The position numbers and the translations under genes were made by a program. The notes under the pieces were generated by a model, which was not told where the DNA came from, did no database searches, and saw only the letters and a program-made list of their open reading frames with translations. A stretch of 64,000 bases of DNA from Marinobacter arenosus (GTDB lineage: Bacteria > Pseudomonadota > Gammaproteobacteria > Pseudomonadales > Oleiphilaceae): assembly GCF_019264345.1 (NCBI RefSeq), contig NZ_JAHVAO010000001.1, positions 2,542,001 through 2,606,000 of the forward strand, written 5' to 3'. Of the stretch, positions 11,218 through 19,810 are shown one piece after another (the first letter of the stretch is position 1; each line of letters opens with the position of its first letter).

Positions 11218-12432
11218 ATGCCGTCGAATCCCCAAAGCTGTACCACGCCTCGCCAATTGTTCACCGTGCTTGCGGCCGGAGCGATCGTGCTGCTGGTTGT
11301 CCACGGGCTGGGCCGATTTATCTACACGCCTTTGCTGCCCTATCTGGTGGAGGACGGCCAGTTCAGTGCCGGCGACGGCGCTGCCGTGGCCACCTGGAAC
11401 TACCTCGGCTACCTGATGGGCGCCCTGCTGGCCATCCGGTGGTACCGCATCGACCAGATCCGCACCCTGCTCCCTGTCTCCCTTGCGGTCCATGTGCTCA
11501 CCACCCTGCTGGTCACCCAGACCGACAACCTGACCCTCATCTCGGCCAGTCGCTGGTTCAACGGCGTCGCCAACGGCATGGTGTTCGTGCACGCCCCGGC
11601 CCTGATCCTGGAATGGCTGGTGCTTCGCAACCGCGCCTCCATGAGCGGCCTGGTGTACATCGGGGTCGGGCTCGGCCTGCTGGTTTCCAGTGGCCTGGTG
11701 ACCGGCAGTTCCGAGTTGCTGGCCGGTGCCCAGCGCTGGTGGCCAGCGGCGGTGCTGTCCATTCCGCTGGCCTGGTGGGGAGCTGCCCGGTTAATGCAAC
11801 TGGACCTTCCGGTGCGTCCACAGAACCACCCCGGTCACGCCGCAGACACCACTCCGCTGCTCGACCGGGCCAGCATCCCACTGTTCCTGTCCTACGCCGG
11901 TGCGGGCCTGGGCTATATCCTGCCAATGACCTTCCTGCCCCTGCTGGCCACCCTTGAGCTGCCCGCGAATCACTGGATGCTTGATGGCACCTGGCTGATC
12001 GTGGCCCTGTGCACCATTCCCGCGCCCTGGATCTGGAACAAACTGGGGGCGAAACTCGGCGATCTGCCGGCATTGAAGCTCAATTTCCTGATTCAACTCC
12101 TTGGTGTACTGGCGGCCGTGCTGTGGCCGGGCGCCATTGGCCTGGTACTGTGCGCGGCCCTGGTGGGCAGTACCTTCCTGGGCACCGTGTTGTTGACCCA
12201 GCGCATTGGCCGGGCGCTGCATCCACACCAGGGCCCCCGGTTGTCGGCTGCCATGGTGGCACTCTACGGCTTCACACAGATGGTTGGGCCGTGGTTGACG
12301 AAACAGTGGCTGGATATGGGCGGGACTCTGGGGTCGGCGTTCGGGATTGGGGTGGCAGCGTTGGGGTTTGGGTTGGTGTTTGTGTTTTTTGTGCCTCTGG
12401 CTGGGGATTGGCATGGTCGGTCGTCTTTGTAG
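11218..12432 (+). CDS. YbfB/YjiJ family MFS transporter
   Basis: Twelve-helix permease of 404 aa. The opening GAIVLLVVHGLGRFIYTPLLPYL (GxGRFxYTPLLP) is the hallmark of the YbfB/YjiJ (MFS_4) group, whose substrates are mostly unknown. There is no signal peptide. The ATG at 11218 lies 91 bases after sco, with a perfect inverted repeat in between. The last 60 codons are markedly G- and T-rich, and the gene runs into a hairpin element 24 bases after its stop. Confidence 0.85.
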   Translation: MPSNPQSCTTPRQLFTVLAAGAIVLLVVHGLGRFIYTPLLPYLVEDGQFSAGDGAAVATWNYLGYLMGALLAIRWYRIDQIRTLLPVSLAVHVLTTLLVTQTDNLTLISASRWFNGVANGMVFVHAPALILEWLVLRNRASMSGLVYIGVGLGLLVSSGLVTGSSELLAGAQRWWPAAVLSIPLAWWGAARLMQLDLPVRPQNHPGHAADTTPLLDRASIPLFLSYAGAGLGYILPMTFLPLLATLELPANHWMLDGTWLIVALCTIPAPWIWNKLGAKLGDLPALKLNFLIQLLGVLAAVLWPGAIGLVLCAALVGSTFLGTVLLTQRIGRALHPHQGPRLSAAMVALYGFTQMVGPWLTKQWLDMGGTLGSAFGIGVAALGFGLVFVFFVPLAGDWHGRSSL

Positions 12433-12456
12433 GACTTGTGGTTTGGCGGGATTGAT

Positions 12457-12545
12457 CGGGGTGGTGGGGTATTTTTTTCCTTGGAAATGGAACTCGCTGC
12501 GCTCAGACATCCATTTCTGGCGGAAAAAAATACCCCACCACCCCG
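12457..12545. repeat. Hairpin element, copy 1 (conserved core, forward)
   Basis: Two perfect 24-bp complementary arms (12457-12480 and 12522-12545) enclose a 41-base centre. The centre has a 7-bp inner stem (GAAATGG/CCATTTC) around the core GAACTCGCTGCGCTCAGACA (12490-12509). The same centre, 40 of 41 bases, recurs at 18508-18548 with different arms that still pair. The intact pairing suggests selection for a folded RNA or single-stranded DNA. No coding function is supported. Confidence 0.85.
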
Positions 12546-12730
12546 CTCTAGCTGACAACACCGATATCGCTAAAGATGAAAGATTAATAAAGAGGTTGGT
12601 TACTGGAGGCAGAGAGTTCGAAGGTAAGAGCCCGGTTATCGGAGTGTTATCTGGCGTGGTTTGAAAGTCTCGTATCGACTTAACCTAGGTTCGATCGTGG
12701 TAATCTGTAACGACAACTGGAGTTCCCTGA
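12546..12730. other. Gene-free AT-richer stretch between two hairpin elements
   Basis: About 185 bases of lower GC than the flanks, lying between oppositely oriented copies of the hairpin core. It contains no reading frame with a ribosome binding site or family signature. A short frame through RLVTGGREFEGKSPVIG has no supporting start. I see no tRNA or promoter strong enough to call. Confidence 0.4.
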
Positions 12731-12823
12731 GGGTATGGGGGTAATTTGAATTTCTGAACGGACAAAGGTGTCTGAGCGCAGCGAGTTCTTTTCCGATCAG
12801 AAATTCAAATTATTCCCGTGCCC
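12731..12823. repeat. Hairpin element, copy 3 (core in reverse)
   Basis: Arms of 27 bases (12731-12757 and 12797-12823) pair throughout when G-U pairs are allowed. They enclose a shorter inner stem and TGTCTGAGCGCAGCGAGTTC at 12769-12788, the exact reverse complement of the core in the copies at 12.5 and 18.5 kb. It ends 37 bases before hrpB. The arms are AT-rich here (AATTTGAATTTCTGA), unlike those of the other copies. Confidence 0.75.
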
Positions 12824-12860
12824 CTCCCCCAAACCCAGCAGTCCTGAACCAAGCTGAAAA

Positions 12861-15347
12861 ATGCTCCCAATAGACGCCATACTCCCAGAGCTAAAACAAA
12901 CCCTGGAACACGCCACCACGGCGCTGCTGCAGGCACCGCCCGGTGCCGGTAAGACGACCCGCGTGCCACTGGCCTTGCTGGATGCGCCCTGGCGGGCCGA
13001 GCGCAAGATCCTGATGCTGGAGCCGAGGCGGCTGGCGGCCCGGTCGGCGGCGCGGTTCATGGCAAAGCAGCTGGGGGAGAAGCCGGGACAGACTGTGGGT
13101 TACCGGACACGCCTTGATACCCGAGTGTCCGAGGCCACGCGCATTGAGGTGGTGACCGAGGGCATTCTGACCCGTCTGATCCAGGCCGATCCCATGCTTG
13201 AGGACTACGCCGCGGTGCTGTTCGATGAATTCCACGAGCGGTCCCTGCAGGCGGATGTCGGGCTGGCACTGGTGCGGGAATCCCAGCAGGCGTTGCGGGA
13301 GGATCTCAGGGTGCTGGTGATGTCGGCGACCCTCGATACCGCGCCCATTGCTCGGGTCTTGGGCGACGTGCCTGTGATCCGCAGCGAAGGCCGGGCGTTT
13401 CCCGTGGAGGTCATGTATCGACCGGATTCGGCTCGGGGCCGGCCGTCCCGGATCGTGGATCGGGTCGTTGCCGTGGTCCACGAGGCGCTTCGGGACCAGT
13501 CCGGCTCGGTGCTGGTGTTTTTGCCCGGGGCGGGAGAAATCCGCAGGACCGAACAGCGTTTGCAGGGTCAACTGGCGGGCCATATTCGGGTGGCGCCGCT
13601 GTACGGCAACCTGAAATCGGACGAACAGGACCGGGCGATCACGCCGGCGCCGGAAGGCGAGCGCAAGGTGGTGCTGGCCACGGCGATTGCCGAAACCAGT
13701 CTGACCATCGAGGGCGTCCGGGTGGTGATCGACAGCGGCCAGCAGCGACGGGCGGTGTTTGATCCCAATAGCGGGATGACACGACTGAAGACGGGGCGGG
13801 TCTCCAAGGCTTCGGCGGAGCAGCGCAAAGGCCGGGCCGGGCGGGTCGAGCCCGGGGTCTGTTACCGGCTTTGGAGCGAGTCCGAGCAATTCGGGCTGGC
13901 AGACTTTACACCGCCGGAAATCCGCGAGGCGGATCTGGCACCCCTGGTGCTCGAACTGGCGCAGTGGGGGGCCCGAACGCCGGACCAGTTGGCCTGGATC
14001 GACCCGCCACCGGAGGCCCATTGGCACCAGGCCGTTGCACTGCTGCAATGGCTGGACATGCTGGATGTGGATGGCGCCATCACCGAACACGGCAAGGCGG
14101 CGCGGGAGCTGGGTGTGCATCCGCGTCTGGCCCACCTGGTTCTGCGAGGCCGAGCACTGGGGTTGCCGGGGCTTGCGGCGGACCTGGCCGCCCTGCTCGG
14201 TGACCGGGATCTGATGGGGCCGGGGGCCGGTGCCGACCTGCACGAGCGCGTTCGGGTGCTCCACGGCGAAAGGGGCCATCGAAATCTGGATCCGTCGCGT
14301 CTGACCGCCATCCGCCAGGCCGCCAAACGACTCCGGAACGGAGCAGTCAGTGAAGGCCCGGTGCCGACCGAGTTCGAGGTCGGCCGGCTGTTGGCCCAGG
14401 CCTACCCGGATCGCATCGGACGGCGCCGGTCAGGGCAGGCACCCCGGTATCAGCTCAGCAACGGCAAGGGGGCGACCTTGCGAGAGGACGACGCCCTGGC
14501 CCGGCACGACTGGCTGGTGGCTGCCGACCTGGATGGCGAATCCCGTGAAGCGACGATCTATCTGGCATCGCCGGTCGAGGTTCGGGATCTGGAGCAGGAT
14601 CTGGCCACCCACATCGAGGAACGCGAGGAAGCGACCTGGGACGACCGGCGGGGCACTGTGATTGCCAGGCGGGTCCGGAAGCTTGGGGAGTTGGTGTTGG
14701 CTGAGACGGCGCTGCCCCATCCCGACCCGGCGCTGATTCAGCAAGGCTTGCTGGACGCGGTCCGGACCAAGGGCCTCGACAGCCTGCCCTGGACCGAGGC
14801 AGCACGTCAGTGGCAGGCCCGGGTGAATCTGCTGGCCCGGGTGTTTCCCGGAGACTGGCCGGACGTCAGTGACGATGCGCTGCTGGCCAGCCTCGACACC
14901 TGGCTGGCGCCGTTTCTGGTGGGCATGCAGCGCTGGGCGGATCTGCGGCGCCTGGAGCTGGTGCCGACGCTGCAAAGCCTGTTGAACTACCCGGAACAGC
15001 AACGCCTGGACGAGCTGGCGCCGACGTCGTTGACGATACCGACCGGTCAGAAGGTTTCACTGGATTACACCGCCGACAATGGGCCGGTCCTGGCCGCGAA
15101 GCTGCAGGCCATGTTCGGTTGGACCGAAACCCCCAGAGTGGCCGGAGGCCGGTTACCCGTGGTGATTCACCTGCTTTCCCCGGCGCAGCGGCCGCTGGCG
15201 GTCACGGCGGATCTGGCCAGTTTCTGGGGCAATGCCTACCCGGAAGTCCGCAAGGATATGCGCGGGCGCTATCCCAAGCACCCCTGGCCCGAGGACCCCT
15301 TCACCGCCGAAGCGCAGCAGGGCACAAAGAAACGCCCAGCTCGCTGA
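12861..15347 (+). CDS. hrpB: ATP-dependent helicase HrpB
   Basis: DEAH-type RNA helicase of 828 aa. Motifs in order: Walker A PPGAGKTT near residue 29, DEFHERS (motif II) near 122, SATLD (motif III), ATAIAETSLTIEG, and QRKGRAGR (motif VI). Then come the helicase-associated domain and the HrpB-specific C-terminal domain ending in YPEVRKDMRGRYPKHPWPEDP. Cellular role is poorly known; the family is non-essential in Escherichia coli. The ATG at 12861 follows a hairpin element. Its last 47 bases overlap the end of the convergent eIF2B-like gene. Confidence 0.95.
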   Translation: MLPIDAILPELKQTLEHATTALLQAPPGAGKTTRVPLALLDAPWRAERKILMLEPRRLAARSAARFMAKQLGEKPGQTVGYRTRLDTRVSEATRIEVVTEGILTRLIQADPMLEDYAAVLFDEFHERSLQADVGLALVRESQQALREDLRVLVMSATLDTAPIARVLGDVPVIRSEGRAFPVEVMYRPDSARGRPSRIVDRVVAVVHEALRDQSGSVLVFLPGAGEIRRTEQRLQGQLAGHIRVAPLYGNLKSDEQDRAITPAPEGERKVVLATAIAETSLTIEGVRVVIDSGQQRRAVFDPNSGMTRLKTGRVSKASAEQRKGRAGRVEPGVCYRLWSESEQFGLADFTPPEIREADLAPLVLELAQWGARTPDQLAWIDPPPEAHWHQAVALLQWLDMLDVDGAITEHGKAARELGVHPRLAHLVLRGRALGLPGLAADLAALLGDRDLMGPGAGADLHERVRVLHGERGHRNLDPSRLTAIRQAAKRLRNGAVSEGPVPTEFEVGRLLAQAYPDRIGRRRSGQAPRYQLSNGKGATLREDDALARHDWLVAADLDGESREATIYLASPVEVRDLEQDLATHIEEREEATWDDRRGTVIARRVRKLGELVLAETALPHPDPALIQQGLLDAVRTKGLDSLPWTEAARQWQARVNLLARVFPGDWPDVSDDALLASLDTWLAPFLVGMQRWADLRRLELVPTLQSLLNYPEQQRLDELAPTSLTIPTGQKVSLDYTADNGPVLAAKLQAMFGWTETPRVAGGRLPVVIHLLSPAQRPLAVTADLASFWGNAYPEVRKDMRGRYPKHPWPEDPFTAEAQQGTKKRPAR

Positions 15348-16146
15348 TCCGGCCGGTGATGAGCTGCTCGGGTACCGGCTCGAAATAGACGTTTCGGGGG
15401 GTTATCCATGGGCCTTCCGGGGCCTGCAGTTCATCGGCCGGGAGTTCCTCCAGGTGGACCGACTCCAGGGTGTCCGGACTGTCGCGGAAGGTATCGGCCA
15501 ACACCCAGAACGGGGTGTTGTGAACGTGAGCCGCCAGCGCCAGTAGATGGGTGCCACTCTTGTTGACAAAATGGCCGTCGGCCAGCCAGCTGTCGCAACC
15601 GGTCATCACCAGGTCGGCCTCCGCCACGAACAGTGCCATCTGGGCATCGGTAATGAGGGTGACGGGCACCTCAAGCTCATTCAGTGTCGCGGCCAGACGG
15701 TGGCCTTCGTGTCCGGGACTGCTCTGGGTGCAGATCACCGAAAACGGGACCTGCGCCTCCACCAGTTCCCGGAACAGCCGGATCAGCAGGGAGCTGGCGC
15801 TGTGGGTCATGATCACCGCGCCCTCGTCGATCTGGGCCAACGCGTTTTTGACGATCCGGTCCGCCGTTGCCTCGAGGTCCCGCCGTACCGACTCGACCTG
15901 CTTCCAGGGTTCGTCGTCACTGTTCAGGCGAGTCTCAATCCGTTCGATGGCGTTTCCGATCACCACCATGCTGGGGCGAGCCCGCCGGAGCTCGGTCAGC
16001 AACCCGCTCAGTGCCTTGGGGTCCGGATGGGCGGCACACAGATAGTCCGCGAGATCCTGCAGGGTTTGCAGCGCCAGTTGGGTGGCGCCGGATTGGCAAT
16101 CGTTCTTGAGCCGCGACAGCACTGGGTTGGTTGAATAATCGGGCAT
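15301..16146 (-). CDS. eIF-2B alpha/beta/delta-like family protein
   Basis: A 281-aa protein with the eIF2B/MtnA/ribose-1,5-bisphosphate isomerase fold. Recognisable elements are MTHSASSLL, the CTQSSPGHEG turn, and MTGCDSWLADGHFVNKSGT, which resembles the family D-x-x-x-x-DG-x-x-x-NKxGT active-site region. Bacterial members probably isomerise phosphorylated sugars rather than act in translation; the substrate here is unknown. It is convergent with hrpB and overlaps its last 47 bases. The ATG is at 16146. Confidence 0.8.
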   Translation of the reverse strand: MPDYSTNPVLSRLKNDCQSGATQLALQTLQDLADYLCAAHPDPKALSGLLTELRRARPSMVVIGNAIERIETRLNSDDEPWKQVESVRRDLEATADRIVKNALAQIDEGAVIMTHSASSLLIRLFRELVEAQVPFSVICTQSSPGHEGHRLAATLNELEVPVTLITDAQMALFVAEADLVMTGCDSWLADGHFVNKSGTHLLALAAHVHNTPFWVLADTFRDSPDTLESVHLEELPADELQAPEGPWITPRNVYFEPVPEQLITGRISELGVSLCPAALRR

Positions 16147-16291
16147 GGCAGTTCCATAGGTTCGTGCCGTTACCCATCAGACTAGCAGATGGCCGTCTGG
16201 TCAGAGCGCTGCAGATCGCCAAAAAATAACTTGCCAGCCGGCCAACTCCGAATAGAATTGCGCACAATTTTTAACCTGTCTGGGCGTGGTC

Positions 16292-17110
16292 ATGAATCTG
16301 GTTTCCTTCAACGTTTTTCGCACCCTTGGCTTGCCCGATATCACCGTCCTCAAGCCGGATGATTTTCTGCGCCACCGGGAACGGCTGCGGGACGCCGACT
16401 GGGTATTGTTCCCGGAATACTGGCAGCTGAACGCGCTGGTGCACGGCCTCAAGTGCCGGGTCTTCCCCAGCGTGGCCAGTTACCGGATCGGTCATGACAA
16501 GGTGGAGATGACCCGCGCGTTCCAGACCGTGGCCCCGGCCCACACTCCCTGGACCGTCATCGAGGCCAATGGCCCCCATGAGCGGGACCAGATCTGGAGC
16601 GCCATGCCCCACCCGTTTGTCGCCAAACTGCCCAAGGCCAGCATGGGGGAAGGGGTCTGGCTGATCGAGACGCGGGCGGACTGGAACCGCTATTGTGAGG
16701 TGACGGACGTGCTTTATGTCCAGGAGTACCTGCCCATCGACCGGGATGCCCGAGTCGTGGTGATTGGTGACCGGGTGCTGACAGCCTACTGGCGGACGCA
16801 GGCGGATCAGGGGTTCTACAACAACCTGGCGCGGGGCGGGGGGGTCGACAATAGCCCGGTGCCGCCGGTGGTGACCGATCTGGCCCTGAAGCTGGCCCGG
16901 GAGCTGGAGGTGGACCACGCCGGCTTCGACATCGCGCTGGTGGACGGCTACCCCTACGTTCTGGAGTTCAACCGCCTGTTTGGCAACCAGGGCCTTGGTC
17001 AGGGCAGCGAACTTCAGGACGCCATCCTGGAGTACCTGCGCCGGCAGAATGAGCCGGCCGGGCCAAACGATCCCACGGGCCCGGAAATCGCCTGGCCCGC
17101 GGCGGTCTGA
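16292..17110 (+). CDS. ATP-grasp domain protein, RimK-like
   Basis: About 272 aa. The central and C-terminal parts resemble the ATP-grasp fold: FVAKLPKASMGEGVWLI (phosphate-binding loop), VQEYLPIDRDARVVVIGDRV, and HAGFDIALVDGYPYVLEFNRLFGNQ, with the metal-binding E and N at the end. Such enzymes join a carboxylate to an amine or thiol; partners here are unknown. An in-frame GTG lies at 16286, but I use the ATG at 16292. It is divergent from the eIF2B-like gene and is followed by the ornithine decarboxylase leader. Confidence 0.8.
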   Translation: MNLVSFNVFRTLGLPDITVLKPDDFLRHRERLRDADWVLFPEYWQLNALVHGLKCRVFPSVASYRIGHDKVEMTRAFQTVAPAHTPWTVIEANGPHERDQIWSAMPHPFVAKLPKASMGEGVWLIETRADWNRYCEVTDVLYVQEYLPIDRDARVVVIGDRVLTAYWRTQADQGFYNNLARGGGVDNSPVPPVVTDLALKLARELEVDHAGFDIALVDGYPYVLEFNRLFGNQGLGQGSELQDAILEYLRRQNEPAGPNDPTGPEIAWPAAV

Positions 17111-17159
17111 ACACCGGCCAACGGCCGCGTAGCGACGACTCGGAGCGGTTTTACGGCAT

Positions 17160-17192
17160 CCCGGCGTATGAGTAAATCTGCTCATATCCGGG
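17160..17192 (+). promoter_or_regulatory. Leader hairpin 1 upstream of ornithine decarboxylase
   Basis: CCCGG plus TATGAG pair with CTCATA plus CCGGG, separated by a small bulge and an 8-base loop. The ATG of a 14-codon reading frame lies inside the 5' arm. Together with the intrinsic terminator 35 bases downstream, this looks like a two-state leader. Folding is read by eye. Confidence 0.45.
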
Positions 17193-17212
17193 TCCTGAAA
17201 AAAGCCCGATGA
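17168..17212 (+). CDS. Possible 14-residue leader peptide
   Basis: The frame reads MSKSAHIRVLKKAR and then TGA. It is basic and ends in Ala-Arg-stop, as does the SpeFL ornithine-sensing arrest peptide of enterobacteria; it also shares an HIR triplet with it. It lies 84 bases before the ornithine decarboxylase start and directly before a terminator. There is no good ribosome binding site (the nearest GGAG is over 20 bases upstream), and a frame this short can occur by chance. Confidence 0.3.
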   Translation: MSKSAHIRVLKKAR

Positions 17213-17226
17213 TCGCGCCAATTCCC

Positions 17227-17261
17227 GGGGGGCTGCAGCCAGGCTGTAGCGCCCCTTTTTT
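17227..17261 (+). terminator. Intrinsic terminator in front of ornithine decarboxylase
   Basis: GGGG, a mismatch and GCTGCAGCC pair with GGCTGTAGC, a mismatch and CCCC, followed by six T. It lies between the ATP-grasp stop (17110) and the decarboxylase start (17296). It may end the upstream transcript or act as an attenuator for the downstream gene. Confidence 0.75.
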
Positions 17262-17295
17262 ATGTCTGTTTGCCCCGTGGAGGGACACACGATCC

Positions 17296-18471
17296 ATGAC
17301 CGAGTCAGCCAACGCCAATCTCGCCGATTACTACGACGCCGAGACCTTTAGCCGGATCAAAGCCTTTGCCGATACCCGGGAAACCCCGTTCGTGGTGATC
17401 GATACCGCGACCATCGATCGTCAGTACAACGAACTGGTGGAAGGATTCCCGTACGCCCAGGTGTATTACGCGGTGAAGGCCAATCCGGCCCCGCAGATTC
17501 TGACCATGTTGCGGGACAAGGGCGCGAATTTCGATATCGCCTCGGTGTACGAGCTCGACAAGGTGCTGGCTCTGGGCGTGACCGGTGACCGGGTCAGCTA
17601 CGGCAACACCATCAAGAAGGCCAAGGACATCCGCACCTTCTACGAGAAGGGTGTGCGCCTGTTCGCCACCGACTCCGAAGCGGACCTGCGCAACATTGCC
17701 AAGGCCGCGCCGGGCTCAAAGGTGTACGTCAGGATCCTCACCGAAGGCACGCTGACGGCTGACTGGCCGCTGTCGCGCAAGTTTGGCTGTCAGACTGACA
17801 TGGCCATGGATCTGCTGATCCTGGCCCGGGACCTGGGCCTGGTGCCCTACGGTGTGTCGTTCCACGTGGGTTCCCAGCAGCGTGAGATCGGCGCCTGGGA
17901 TGCCGCGCTGAACAAGGTGAAGGTCATCTTCGAACGCCTGAAGGAAGAAGACGGCATTGAGCTGAAGATGATCAACATGGGCGGCGGTTTTCCGGCCAAC
18001 TACATCACCCGTACCAACGAGCTGAAGGTGTACGCCGAGGAAATTTCGCGCTTCCTGCACGAGGATTTTGGCGCCGATCTGCCGGAGATCATCATTGAAC
18101 CGGGCCGCTCGTTGATTTCCAATGCCGGTGTGCTGGTGAGTGAGGTGGTTCTGATTTCCCGCAAGTCCCGGACCGCGCTGCACCGTTGGGTGTTCACGGA
18201 TGTGGGCAAGTTTTCCGGGCTGATCGAGACCCTGGACGAGGCCATCAAGTTTCCGATCTGGACGGATAAGGTGGGCGAAGGCGAGGACTGCGTGATTGCG
18301 GGGCCGACCTGCGACAGTGCGGACATCATGTACGAGCATCACAAGTACCCGCTGCCGCTGAATCTGGCGATCGGGGACCGGATGTACTGGCTGTCGACGG
18401 GGGCCTATACCACCACCTACAGTGCGGTGGAGTTTAACGGGTTTCCTCCGTTGAAGGACTACTACATCTAA
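17296..18471 (+). CDS. Ornithine (or lysine/ornithine) decarboxylase, PLP fold type III
   Basis: Converts ornithine to putrescine, the first step of polyamine synthesis. 391 aa, the short bacterial fold-III form as in Pseudomonas SpeC. The PLP lysine is K61 in YYAVKANP; the Gly-rich phosphate loop is MGGGFP; EPGRSLISNAG and GPTCDSAD supply further PLP and active-site residues (catalytic Cys). The ATG at 17296 follows GGAGGGACACACGATCC. Specificity between ornithine and lysine cannot be settled by eye. The leader has two hairpins, the second a terminator. Confidence 0.93.
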   Translation: MTESANANLADYYDAETFSRIKAFADTRETPFVVIDTATIDRQYNELVEGFPYAQVYYAVKANPAPQILTMLRDKGANFDIASVYELDKVLALGVTGDRVSYGNTIKKAKDIRTFYEKGVRLFATDSEADLRNIAKAAPGSKVYVRILTEGTLTADWPLSRKFGCQTDMAMDLLILARDLGLVPYGVSFHVGSQQREIGAWDAALNKVKVIFERLKEEDGIELKMINMGGGFPANYITRTNELKVYAEEISRFLHEDFGADLPEIIIEPGRSLISNAGVLVSEVVLISRKSRTALHRWVFTDVGKFSGLIETLDEAIKFPIWTDKVGEGEDCVIAGPTCDSADIMYEHHKYPLPLNLAIGDRMYWLSTGAYTTTYSAVEFNGFPPLKDYYI

Positions 18472-18483
18472 AATCGGAGGTGG

Positions 18484-18572
18484 CCGCGGGGCGGGTATAC
18501 ATTTCCCTTGGAAATGGAACTCGCTGCGCTCAGACAGCCATTTCTGGCGGGAAATGTATACCCGCCCCACGG
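18484..18572. repeat. Hairpin element, copy 2 (conserved core, forward)
   Basis: Arms 18484-18507 and 18549-18572 pair at 23 of 24 positions. The 41-base centre (18508-18548) differs by one base from that of copy 1, with the core GAACTCGCTGCGCTCAGACA at 18517-18536. It sits between the decarboxylase stop and the convergent MFS gene, so it may also serve as a two-way transcription stop, though no strong T-run follows. Confidence 0.85.
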
Positions 18573-18607
18573 CTCTTTGACGTGGGTGCGGACACGTTTG
18601 GAAAGGG

Positions 18608-19810
18608 TCAGCTTTCGGGTTGGCCCTTTTTTCGTTGCAGGTCGAGGGTGAAGGCCAGGGGTAGCACCATCAGGGCGTAGGCGATCATCACCATCAGGGC
18701 GTGCCGGGCGTCGCCGGTCCAGTCGGCCAGGACGCCGCCGAGCATGGGCACGGTGAAGGCAACGGTGTAGCCCACCAGGAAGGTGCCGGCGGACAGGCGG
18801 CCGGTTTCAGCGGAGGAAACGACCAGGGGCGGGATGGCCACGAGCAGGATCAGGAGCATGCCGGCGACCAGGCTCATGAGGGTGGCGCTTACGATCGACC
18901 ACCAGCCGCTGGATAGGACGGCAACGATGGCGCCGAGGATGGCGAGGCTGGCCAGAGTGGCGATGACGCCGGGGCGGCCGACCCAGTAGCGGGCCATTTT
19001 GAGCATGGTCAGGGAGGCGAAGACCTGGGCAAGGTTGTACCAGAACAGGGCGTCCGGGAGTCGTTCGAACTGGCCCTGGTACTGCAGCAGGTTGCCCATG
19101 TAGGCGTTCAGGCCGAAGAACAGGGAACCGGACAGACCGAGCAACAGGCCGATGCGCAGGGTCAGGGGGTTTTTCCAGTCCGGTAACCAGGCCACGTTAC
19201 GCACCGGCCGGCTGCGGTCCCGTTTGGGCAGGAACAGCGCCGCGGCTACCAGCAAGGCGGGCAGTGACCAGACCAGCAGTGTCGCGCGCCAGCTGTTGTC
19301 CAGCAATGGCATGAGTACCGGCAGGGTGATCCCGGCGCCAATGAACTCGCCCATCAGCATGCCGTTCATGTAAATCGCGGTACCGAGCGCGAGGTGATGG
19401 GGCTCCAGCCAGCGTGGCAGCAAGGCCGGCAGCGCCGGTTGCATCATGGACACGCCCAGTCCCATCACGGCGCTGGCCACCATGAGCGTCAGGGTATCGG
19501 GGACCAGGCCGCGGCCGGCGGAGCCGATCACCATGATGACGAGGGCCAGGGCCAGGGTATTGCGTGGCCCGAGACGGGCAATCGACAGGGAGCCGGGTAT
19601 GGAGCCCACGGCCAGCATCAGGATCGGCAGTGTGGTCAGGGCCCCGGTCAGGGCCTGGGAAAGGGCCAGTTCGTCACTGATGAAAGGCGCCAGCGGCGGG
19701 GCCACCAGGATCGGAATCCGGAGATAGACTCCAGCGAACCAAAGCAAGACCGCCACCGGCAGCAGTCTGGCTGGCGGTGGCGGTGCGGGTGCGGCTCCGG
19801 TTTCAGCCAC
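18608..19810 (-). CDS. CynX/NimT-type MFS transporter
   Basis: A 400-aa, twelve-helix permease. The proline-rich cytoplasmic N-terminus (APAPPPPARLL) leads into VAVLLWFAGVYLRIPILVAPPL, typical of the CynX/NimT group (cyanate or nitroimidazole-related transport). The substrate is not known. Its start lies 9 bases after the ectC stop on the same strand, so the two are very likely co-transcribed. That makes a link to ectoine or a related compound plausible but unproven. Confidence 0.85.
   Translation of the reverse strand: MAETGAAPAPPPPARLLPVAVLLWFAGVYLRIPILVAPPLAPFISDELALSQALTGALTTLPILMLAVGSIPGSLSIARLGPRNTLALALVIMVIGSAGRGLVPDTLTLMVASAVMGLGVSMMQPALPALLPRWLEPHHLALGTAIYMNGMLMGEFIGAGITLPVLMPLLDNSWRATLLVWSLPALLVAAALFLPKRDRSRPVRNVAWLPDWKNPLTLRIGLLLGLSGSLFFGLNAYMGNLLQYQGQFERLPDALFWYNLAQVFASLTMLKMARYWVGRPGVIATLASLAILGAIVAVLSSGWWSIVSATLMSLVAGMLLILLVAIPPLVVSSAETGRLSAGTFLVGYTVAFTVPMLGGVLADWTGDARHALMVMIAYALMVLPLAFTLDLQRKKGQPES

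Follow-up and report, generated by a model that had tools for sequence, protein, structure and literature searches.

The window, a stretch of 64,000 nucleotides from Marinobacter arenosus (G000:C1:2542001-2606000), carries three hairpins with a conserved 19-base loop, which stand between genes on either side of hrpB. The genes and features concerned are the following.

11218-12432, + strand: MFS-type gene upstream of copy 1
12457..12545, + strand: hairpin copy 1, with 58 nt from the stop of the MFS-type gene to the loop
12491-12509, + strand: conserved 19-base loop of copy 1; its lower strand is TGTCTGAGCGCAGCGAGTT
12496-12502, lower strand: C-GNA-G within the loop of copy 1, as read from the sequence
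12731..12823, - strand: hairpin copy 2, on the 5' side of hrpB, facing copy 1
12769-12787, - strand: conserved 19-base loop of copy 2
12861-15347, + strand: hrpB
17209-18471, + strand: Orn/Arg/DAP decarboxylase-family gene (ODC), left of copy 3
18484..18572, + strand: hairpin copy 3, between the convergent ODC-family and MFS-type genes
18518-18536, + strand: conserved 19-base loop of copy 3
18602..18637, + strand: separate terminator-like hairpin with a T-run, downstream of copy 3 and outside the element
18608-19810, - strand: MFS-type gene right of copy 3

The 20-base core that the earlier note had described as exact in three copies is indeed so: GAACTCGCTGCGCTCAGACA occurs in the window at 12490-12509 (+), 12769-12788 (-) and 18517-18536 (+), no site is added when up to three mismatches are allowed, and the shuffle control gave 0 matches over 100 shuffles. 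The 41-base centre said to be shared at 40 positions holds and is in fact longer, 44 of 45 bases being common to copies 1 and 3. The 24-bp outer arms, claimed to differ and still to pair almost perfectly, are paired at 24/24 positions in copy 1 and 23/24 in copy 3, and the 27-bp arms of the reversed copy, claimed to be held by G-U pairs, consist of 23 Watson-Crick pairs and four G-T pairs on the + strand of the window. Folded as single-stranded DNA, all six strands beat 200 of 200 shuffles (z -5.9 to -11.5). Copies 1 and 2 form one pair of facing elements (-> <-) between the MFS-type gene and hrpB, with a loop-to-loop distance of 278 bp. The terminator-like hairpin at 18602-18637 was listed by one scan and unlisted by another scan that used its own criteria.

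Distribution of the element

In the window genome AACTCGCTNCGCTCAGACA has 15 exact matches, two with one mismatch and two with three, the backward control giving 5 matches at three mismatches; 17 members were adopted as the family count. The exact 19-mer was found in 32 of the 58 genomes searched, all 32 of them Marinobacter (the genome of the window and 31 of 36 others), and in 0 of 21 genomes of other families, with a backward control of 0. Among 299 Pseudomonadota genomes the N-pattern was present in eight (three being Marinobacter), corresponding to 6 of 153 genera, and the control gave 0. Scanning 257 Gb of species genomes gave at least 114 stretches with the exact 19-mer, where ~1.9 are expected by chance. 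The matches listed comprise 19 from Marinobacter, 50 from other Pseudomonadota, 21 from Bacillota, 9 from Bacteroidota/Rhodothermota, 6 from Desulfobacterota and kin, 5 from Nitrospirota, 2 from Melainabacteria, and one each from Thermotogota and Cloacimonadota, that is, eight phyla as sorted by record titles, many of the records being metagenome bins. The loop stands at the tip of a hairpin in Clostridia, Bacteroidota, Nitrospirota and other proteobacteria. In 25 genomes picked as known carriers among the 19-mer matches listed, the copy number ranges from 2 to 138 (backward control 0 in 24 of the 25 and 5 in the richest). Together, the scan matches and the copy numbers describe a family of broad but patchy occurrence, with multiple copies in each of those 25 genomes. 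The count beyond the window that the earlier note had proposed thus brought many more copies in the same genome, in its relatives and in other phyla, and the genome-wide absence of further copies by which the note would have been refuted did not occur. A single Ralstonia copy (251 bases, megablast) had no match among plasmid records.

The loop was also noticed in two other settings. An 8-kb Parabacteroides contig (L068) has six copies whose arms are nearly constant and whose loop comes in several variants, and a nucleotidyltransferase-like reading frame adjoins one of these copies (by eye). In three viral contigs from one sample (L157, L160, L161) the loop lies inside AAGACCCTAGA...GA(T/C)CTT, where a long hairpin is barely present or absent.

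Arms, loop and placement

In most lineages the 19-mer is at the tip of a long hairpin with lineage-specific arms, and the size of the element ranges from ~90 nt in Marinobacter to ~250 nt in Lachnospiraceae, the hairpin of a Lachnospiraceae genome being a rod. When right arms were exchanged in Marinobacter, 132 of 171 copies folded better with their own than with any of 30 foreign ones, the mean energy of the 171 unique copies being -54.1 kcal/mol with own, -34.2 with foreign and -28.1 with shuffled right arms. Outside Marinobacter, 112 of 134 copies exceed each of 15 shuffles of their own arm in arm complementarity, and 96 of the 134 exceed all 15 foreign arms; a rank by whole energy, in which 64 of 133 copies beat all 30 foreign arms, was set aside in favour of this shuffle-based complementarity because it is confounded by base composition. 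Thirteen copies of one Lachnospiraceae genome reach an outer-arm score of 34.1 with their own arms versus 20.7 with those of others, and the inner 90 nt of these copies are 91% identical. RNAalifold, applied to the 44-copy alignment A1, returned 3 invariant pairs only, a poor yield due to the differing arm lengths, hence the use of arm swaps and of an alignment of orthologous ODC sites.

The 3' end of the ODC gene was matched in 38 of 41 genomes (in two over only 64 and 26 bases), and the best 30 of the 38 matched loci were compared. The element occupies the site in 17 of the 30 genomes, its loop lying 49-67 nt from the stop codon and being reversed in 3 of the 17, and it is absent in 13. Own arms give -62.9 kcal/mol versus -44.6 for swapped ones, and the own mean is reached by 7 of 272 swaps. 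Both partners have changed in 11 of the 20 pairs of this alignment, versus 5.1 in shuffles (reached by 0 of 500) and 0 to 6 in slid versions of the pair set, the structure used for this count being derived from the very alignment that it scores. Mean identity is 94.2% for the loop and 60.2 and 61.0% for the arms (ungapped from the loop), compared with 83.9% for the last 300 coding bases of ODC and 59.2% for third codon positions; the arms thus drift about like third positions, yet stay paired, and the loop does not drift in this way. In G023, compared with G009, and in G022, compared with G027, the hairpin is absent while little else nearby has changed and part of the outer stem remains; no target-site duplication was seen by eye, and the absences may be deletions. 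A short, loop-less hairpin, perhaps a remnant or a precursor, was seen by eye at the ODC site of G005, G013 and G031 (L333, L332 and L335, respectively).

Covariation, which the earlier note had read as pointing to selection on structure, is therefore present in the arm swaps and in the ODC-site pairs, and its absence among many copies, which the note had named as an outcome contrary to its reading, did not occur. What does not follow is selection as the only cause, since arm-to-arm correction could yield the same, and part of the covariation may have arisen by such correction rather than by selection. The G-T wobble pairs favour the upper strand in Marinobacter (452 vs 306) and the lower strand in Lachnospiraceae (54 vs 16), and are even elsewhere (152 vs 154); the choice of a strand from their asymmetry was dropped, as the lineages disagree. 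An extra short hairpin was noticed on the 3' side of the lower strand in 47 of 113 non-Marinobacter elements versus 14 of 113 on the other side. It lies 45-230 nt 3' of the lower-strand loop, is often A/T-rich (like GTTACTTTTCTTTG...CAAAGAAAAGTAAC), and was found in beta- and gammaproteobacteria, Nitrospirota, Bacteroidota and Thermotoga (L077, L046, L095, L089, L096 and others).

Among 283 copies with paired arms, all four bases occur at loop position 9 (168 G, 92 T, 16 A, 7 C), there are 24 variants each at position 10 (C/T) and position 16 (G/A), and the remaining positions have 0-7, figures that underestimate the variation because the copies were mostly retrieved by the motif itself. The backward-pattern control is invalid for this set: owing to the near mirror symmetry of the loop, the reversed pattern can match true copies (128 of its 225 matches had paired arms). 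The freest position, 9, is the middle of GNA in GCGNAGC of the lower strand. GNA triloops closed by C-G are unusually stable DNA mini-hairpins. The lower-strand loop, GCGNAGC with flanking tandem G-A/A-G, would form such a compact C-GNA-G mini-hairpin, a proposal built on sequence and literature since folding programs hold no GNA bonus. C-GNA-G is kept in 333 of 354 copies matching AACTCGCTNYGCTCARACA; the G of GNA is lost in 21 of the 354, which counts against the GNA reading. We regard the conservation of the loop as a stronger argument for function than the covariation of the arms.

As placed by simple ORF calling, in which errors are likely, 157 Marinobacter copies comprise 72 in convergent, 80 in tandem and 5 in divergent contexts, with 7 further copies inside long ORFs, and 79 copies of other genera comprise 26, 36 and 17, respectively, with 4 more inside long ORFs. 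Copies thus lie mostly at gene 3' ends, the location after stop codons that the earlier note had wished to see checked. In Marinobacter the median distance from stop to loop is 76 nt, and of 80 single elements preceded by a gene in the same orientation, 67 have their loop 46-91 nt past the stop. Tandem contexts show 46 sense versus 34 antisense copies in Marinobacter (p 0.22; single elements lean to sense, 32 vs 19) and 17 versus 19 in other genera (p 0.87). In nine Marinobacter genomes all 21 of 21 neighbours closer than 700 bp face each other (-> <-), in convergent and tandem contexts alike, as do 13 of 14 Lachnospiraceae pairs closer than 900 bp among the places listed.

A separate observation concerns chromosomal position: in the same nine genomes 64 of 114 elements lie 0-310 kb right of dnaA and 5 left of it, where 8.3 are expected on each side. 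The 114 are drawn from 117 listed elements, the three on single-copy contigs being set aside; where a contig lacks dnaA, its elements were scored as belonging to neither side. The crowded region is G000:C1:2533267-2756931 in the window genome and recurs in the eight other Marinobacter genomes.

Search for a partner protein

A genome-encoded RAYT-type protein, which the earlier note had suggested looking for, was not found in the window genome: there is no profile match to Y1_Tnp and no match to a RAYT protein query, yet the genome has 17 elements. At 29 RAYT loci of other genera the loop is absent within ~1.5 kb at up to four mismatches (0 of 29), and at five mismatches seven matches stand against 9 in the backward control. 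None of the four Y1_Tnp loci of the carriers G149 and G271 has the loop. Among five carriers of other genera, G259 and G322 show neither Y1_Tnp nor RAYT, the RAYT query having been run on 398 genomes that possibly do not include these two, and G334 has a RAYT that was found by the protein query and missed by the Y1_Tnp model, which is therefore not fully sensitive.

Four Marinobacter RAYT loci adjoin an element (L226, L211, L217 and L218). Both flanks are common to L179/L226 and L218, one of them also to L217, and L211 has the dehydrogenase gene by reading frame, so that, judged by their flanks, the four cases look like one orthologous region; at L001 and L011 the element is in that region with no adjoining RAYT. 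The RAYT of L226 (REP_Tyr_transpos, G017:C1:1243977-1244492) has GTAG repeats of its own. RAYT as an established driver was rejected on these grounds (the apparently single orthologous region, the own GTAG repeats of L226 and 0 of 29 loci in other genera), and a trans-acting reader of the loop is probably not a RAYT. In an all-against-all comparison of neighbour proteins together with Pfam, the only families to recur were orthologous neighbours and common enzyme families. The Pfam scan covered 146 of 214 neighbouring ORFs, leaving out 68 longer ones, and found at most three members per family in the first 25 of 100 families listed, so that single members may be missed.

Explanations and known relatives

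Four alternative explanations have to be weighed. The elements could be RNA structures of mRNA 3' ends (bidirectional terminators, processing sites or stability hairpins) with the loop as a docking site for protein or RNA, and a processing or termination signal had been offered by the earlier note. In Marinobacter the elements hug stop codons and avoid divergent gaps, the loop position 46-91 nt after the stop is also expected from an RNA role, single elements in tandem contexts lean to sense, and at 6 of the 17 occupied ODC sites the scan found no other terminator-like hairpin. However, the other 11 do have a separate one (starting 129-167 nt past the stop; 5 of 13 sites without the element have it as well), no T-run follows the 3' arm in the copies printed, and the elements are absent from the lists of two intrinsic-terminator scans. 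Rfam covariance models gave 0 matches over threshold in the window and only two tRNAs at 18 loci of other taxa; at low threshold 12300-13000 matched 12 models of microRNA precursors and one snoRNA, none of which reached the gathering threshold. Absence of the hairpin at 13 ODC sites and its reversal at 3 make a strand-specific role in mRNA unlikely, and with the overall orientation bias not significant, termination or processing is disfavoured. An RNA role at 3' ends is possible, and we consider the RNA explanation as a whole unlikely; covariation, as this element warns, does not by itself prove an RNA.

Nor do we give much weight to a non-autonomous transposon of MITE or REPIN type, moved by a RAYT-type HUH or other transposase and with no host function, which seems to us quite unlikely: the facing close pairs, the patchy distribution (8 of 299 Pseudomonadota genomes), the four Marinobacter RAYT loci and the RAYT of G334 fit it, but the window genome has 17 elements and neither match, G259 and G322 show neither (with the uncertain query coverage and model sensitivity given above), the loop is missing from the 29 RAYT loci of other genera, the four Marinobacter cases look like one region, and the loop is kept at 94% at the old ODC site. 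That the loop is coding (lower strand ...Ser-Glu-Arg-Ser-Glu-Phe...) is scarcely credible. Its free base does fall on the third position of an Arg codon, CGN, and open reading frames of that kind are listed, but the Arg-codon reading is unsupported as there is hardly any variation at the other synonymous positions (1, 1, 0 and 7 of 283 copies at top positions 3, 6, 12 and 15), the non-synonymous positions 10 and 16 do vary, indels change the arms and the hairpin flips. Somewhat unlikely is that the arms are complementary through copying onto each other (hairpin mismatch repair or template switching) and that only the loop is selected. Copies of one genome with 91% identical inner parts carry different yet matching outer arms, and the rate of arm drift is about that of third codon positions, both of which fit arm copying; against it, asymmetric bulges, which full copying would erase, recur within lineages (by eye), and the conservation of the loop is left unexplained.

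Orientation freedom, reversals, conservation confined to the loop and the GNA pattern favour the DNA-element reading, that of a dispersed, non-coding, REP/BIME-like DNA hairpin with the loop as its working part and the arms as a sequence-free holder. We give this reading about an even chance, its mechanistic steps being inferred. Against it stand the neighbour proteins scanned, among which no family is shared, the wobble pairs, which name no consistent strand, and the 46-91 nt spacing after the stop, equally expected from RNA. Several of its components are observed directly: many dispersed copies, the hairpin structure, covarying arms, a loop far more conserved than the arms, location mostly at gene 3' ends, facing pairs, both orientations at one site, and absence with nearly the same flanks. 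Of the first interpretation, the conserved structure and the REP/BIME-like dispersed element stand in substance, carried by the covariation, the 3' location and the inverted close pairs; termination or processing is disfavoured, and a RAYT was not found in the window genome. We propose that the self-complementary arms would lift the loop out of the double helix and that the element would act as DNA: negative supercoiling would extrude it as a cruciform, or it would fold into a hairpin while the DNA is single-stranded. A putative trans-acting protein would recognise the C-GNA-G mini-hairpin of the lower strand, and new copies may arise now and then via single-stranded or cruciform intermediates, to be kept where promoters are unharmed or because the bound factor benefits the host. 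Recognition and mobility are both suppositions; the absences may be deletions.

A stem that is free and a loop that is nearly fixed from Clostridia to Proteobacteria, in up to 138 copies per genome, point to a common reader. A further, tentative idea, to which we give somewhat less than an even chance, is a hairpin 'apex code' across phyla, a 19-base single-stranded DNA motif, the C-GNA-G mini-hairpin and its tandem G-A pairs, on interchangeable, self-renewing arms that would be read by a putative, widely transferred enzyme. If true, this would make the element a mobile or chromosome-organising one, with its specificity in the loop alone and arms rewritten from each other. The 19-base loop is a defined bait for finding the putative reader, and how palindromes stay perfect could be tested directly on copies of one genome whose two arms have changed together.

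As a rule, dispersed palindromes are confined to a lineage and share their stems. To our knowledge, no described family has a cross-phylum loop on free arms, and within dispersed palindromic repeats this feature is new here; literature searches, some of them with 12-base fragments of the loop or parts of the neighbouring hairpin, found no description of the element among the matches listed, the searches covering texts rather than figures. Integron attC sites have a folded lower strand, sequence-variable covarying arms and extrahelical bases. Their arm ends (R boxes) are conserved, whereas in the present element it is the apex. The promoters of the phage N4 virion RNA polymerase (PMC4496689) are supercoil-extruded hairpins with a three-base loop, of which the closing pair, the G and the A are needed; they differ in their short stems (7 bp is named), a phage-encoded polymerase and a transcription start, none of which is known for the element.

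The main text of Di Nocera 2013 (PMC3733652) describes GTAG/CGTC superfamily REPs with their RAYT transposases and the TIRYT/TIRtron repeats; it does not mention Marinobacter, and its repeat sequences stand in figures. Like the REP, BIME and REPIN repeats treated there, the element is a dispersed intergenic palindrome, mostly in convergent or tandem contexts, forms inverted dimers (21 of 21 close pairs), lies 3' of genes and is patchy over phyla. The REP families of that text are defined by tag, stem and overall structure, whereas here the loop is common across phyla and the stem varies per copy; REP stems have 5-13 bp there, and the arms here measure from 24 to over 100 nt. Unlike in REP/RAYT systems, a RAYT seems not to be required, and apart from what looks like one orthologous Marinobacter region no RAYT flanked by the repeat was found at the loci compared. 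The TIRYT/TIRtron terminal repeats, some of them self-complementary, form dispersed families, also in Stenotrophomonas (a genus in which the present element has copies too), according to the same text; the comparison with them is one of descriptions, not of sequences, and the loop is absent beside all 29 RAYT loci of other genera. At ~90 to ~250 nt the element differs from a 20-40 bp palindrome with an unpaired GTAG/CGTC tag: some Marinobacter copies start with (G)TAGCCTG, the majority consensus is AGCCTG, and there is no universal tag. As a minor observation, the loop of the GTAG repeat at L226 itself contains GCGAAGC, a C-GAA-G.
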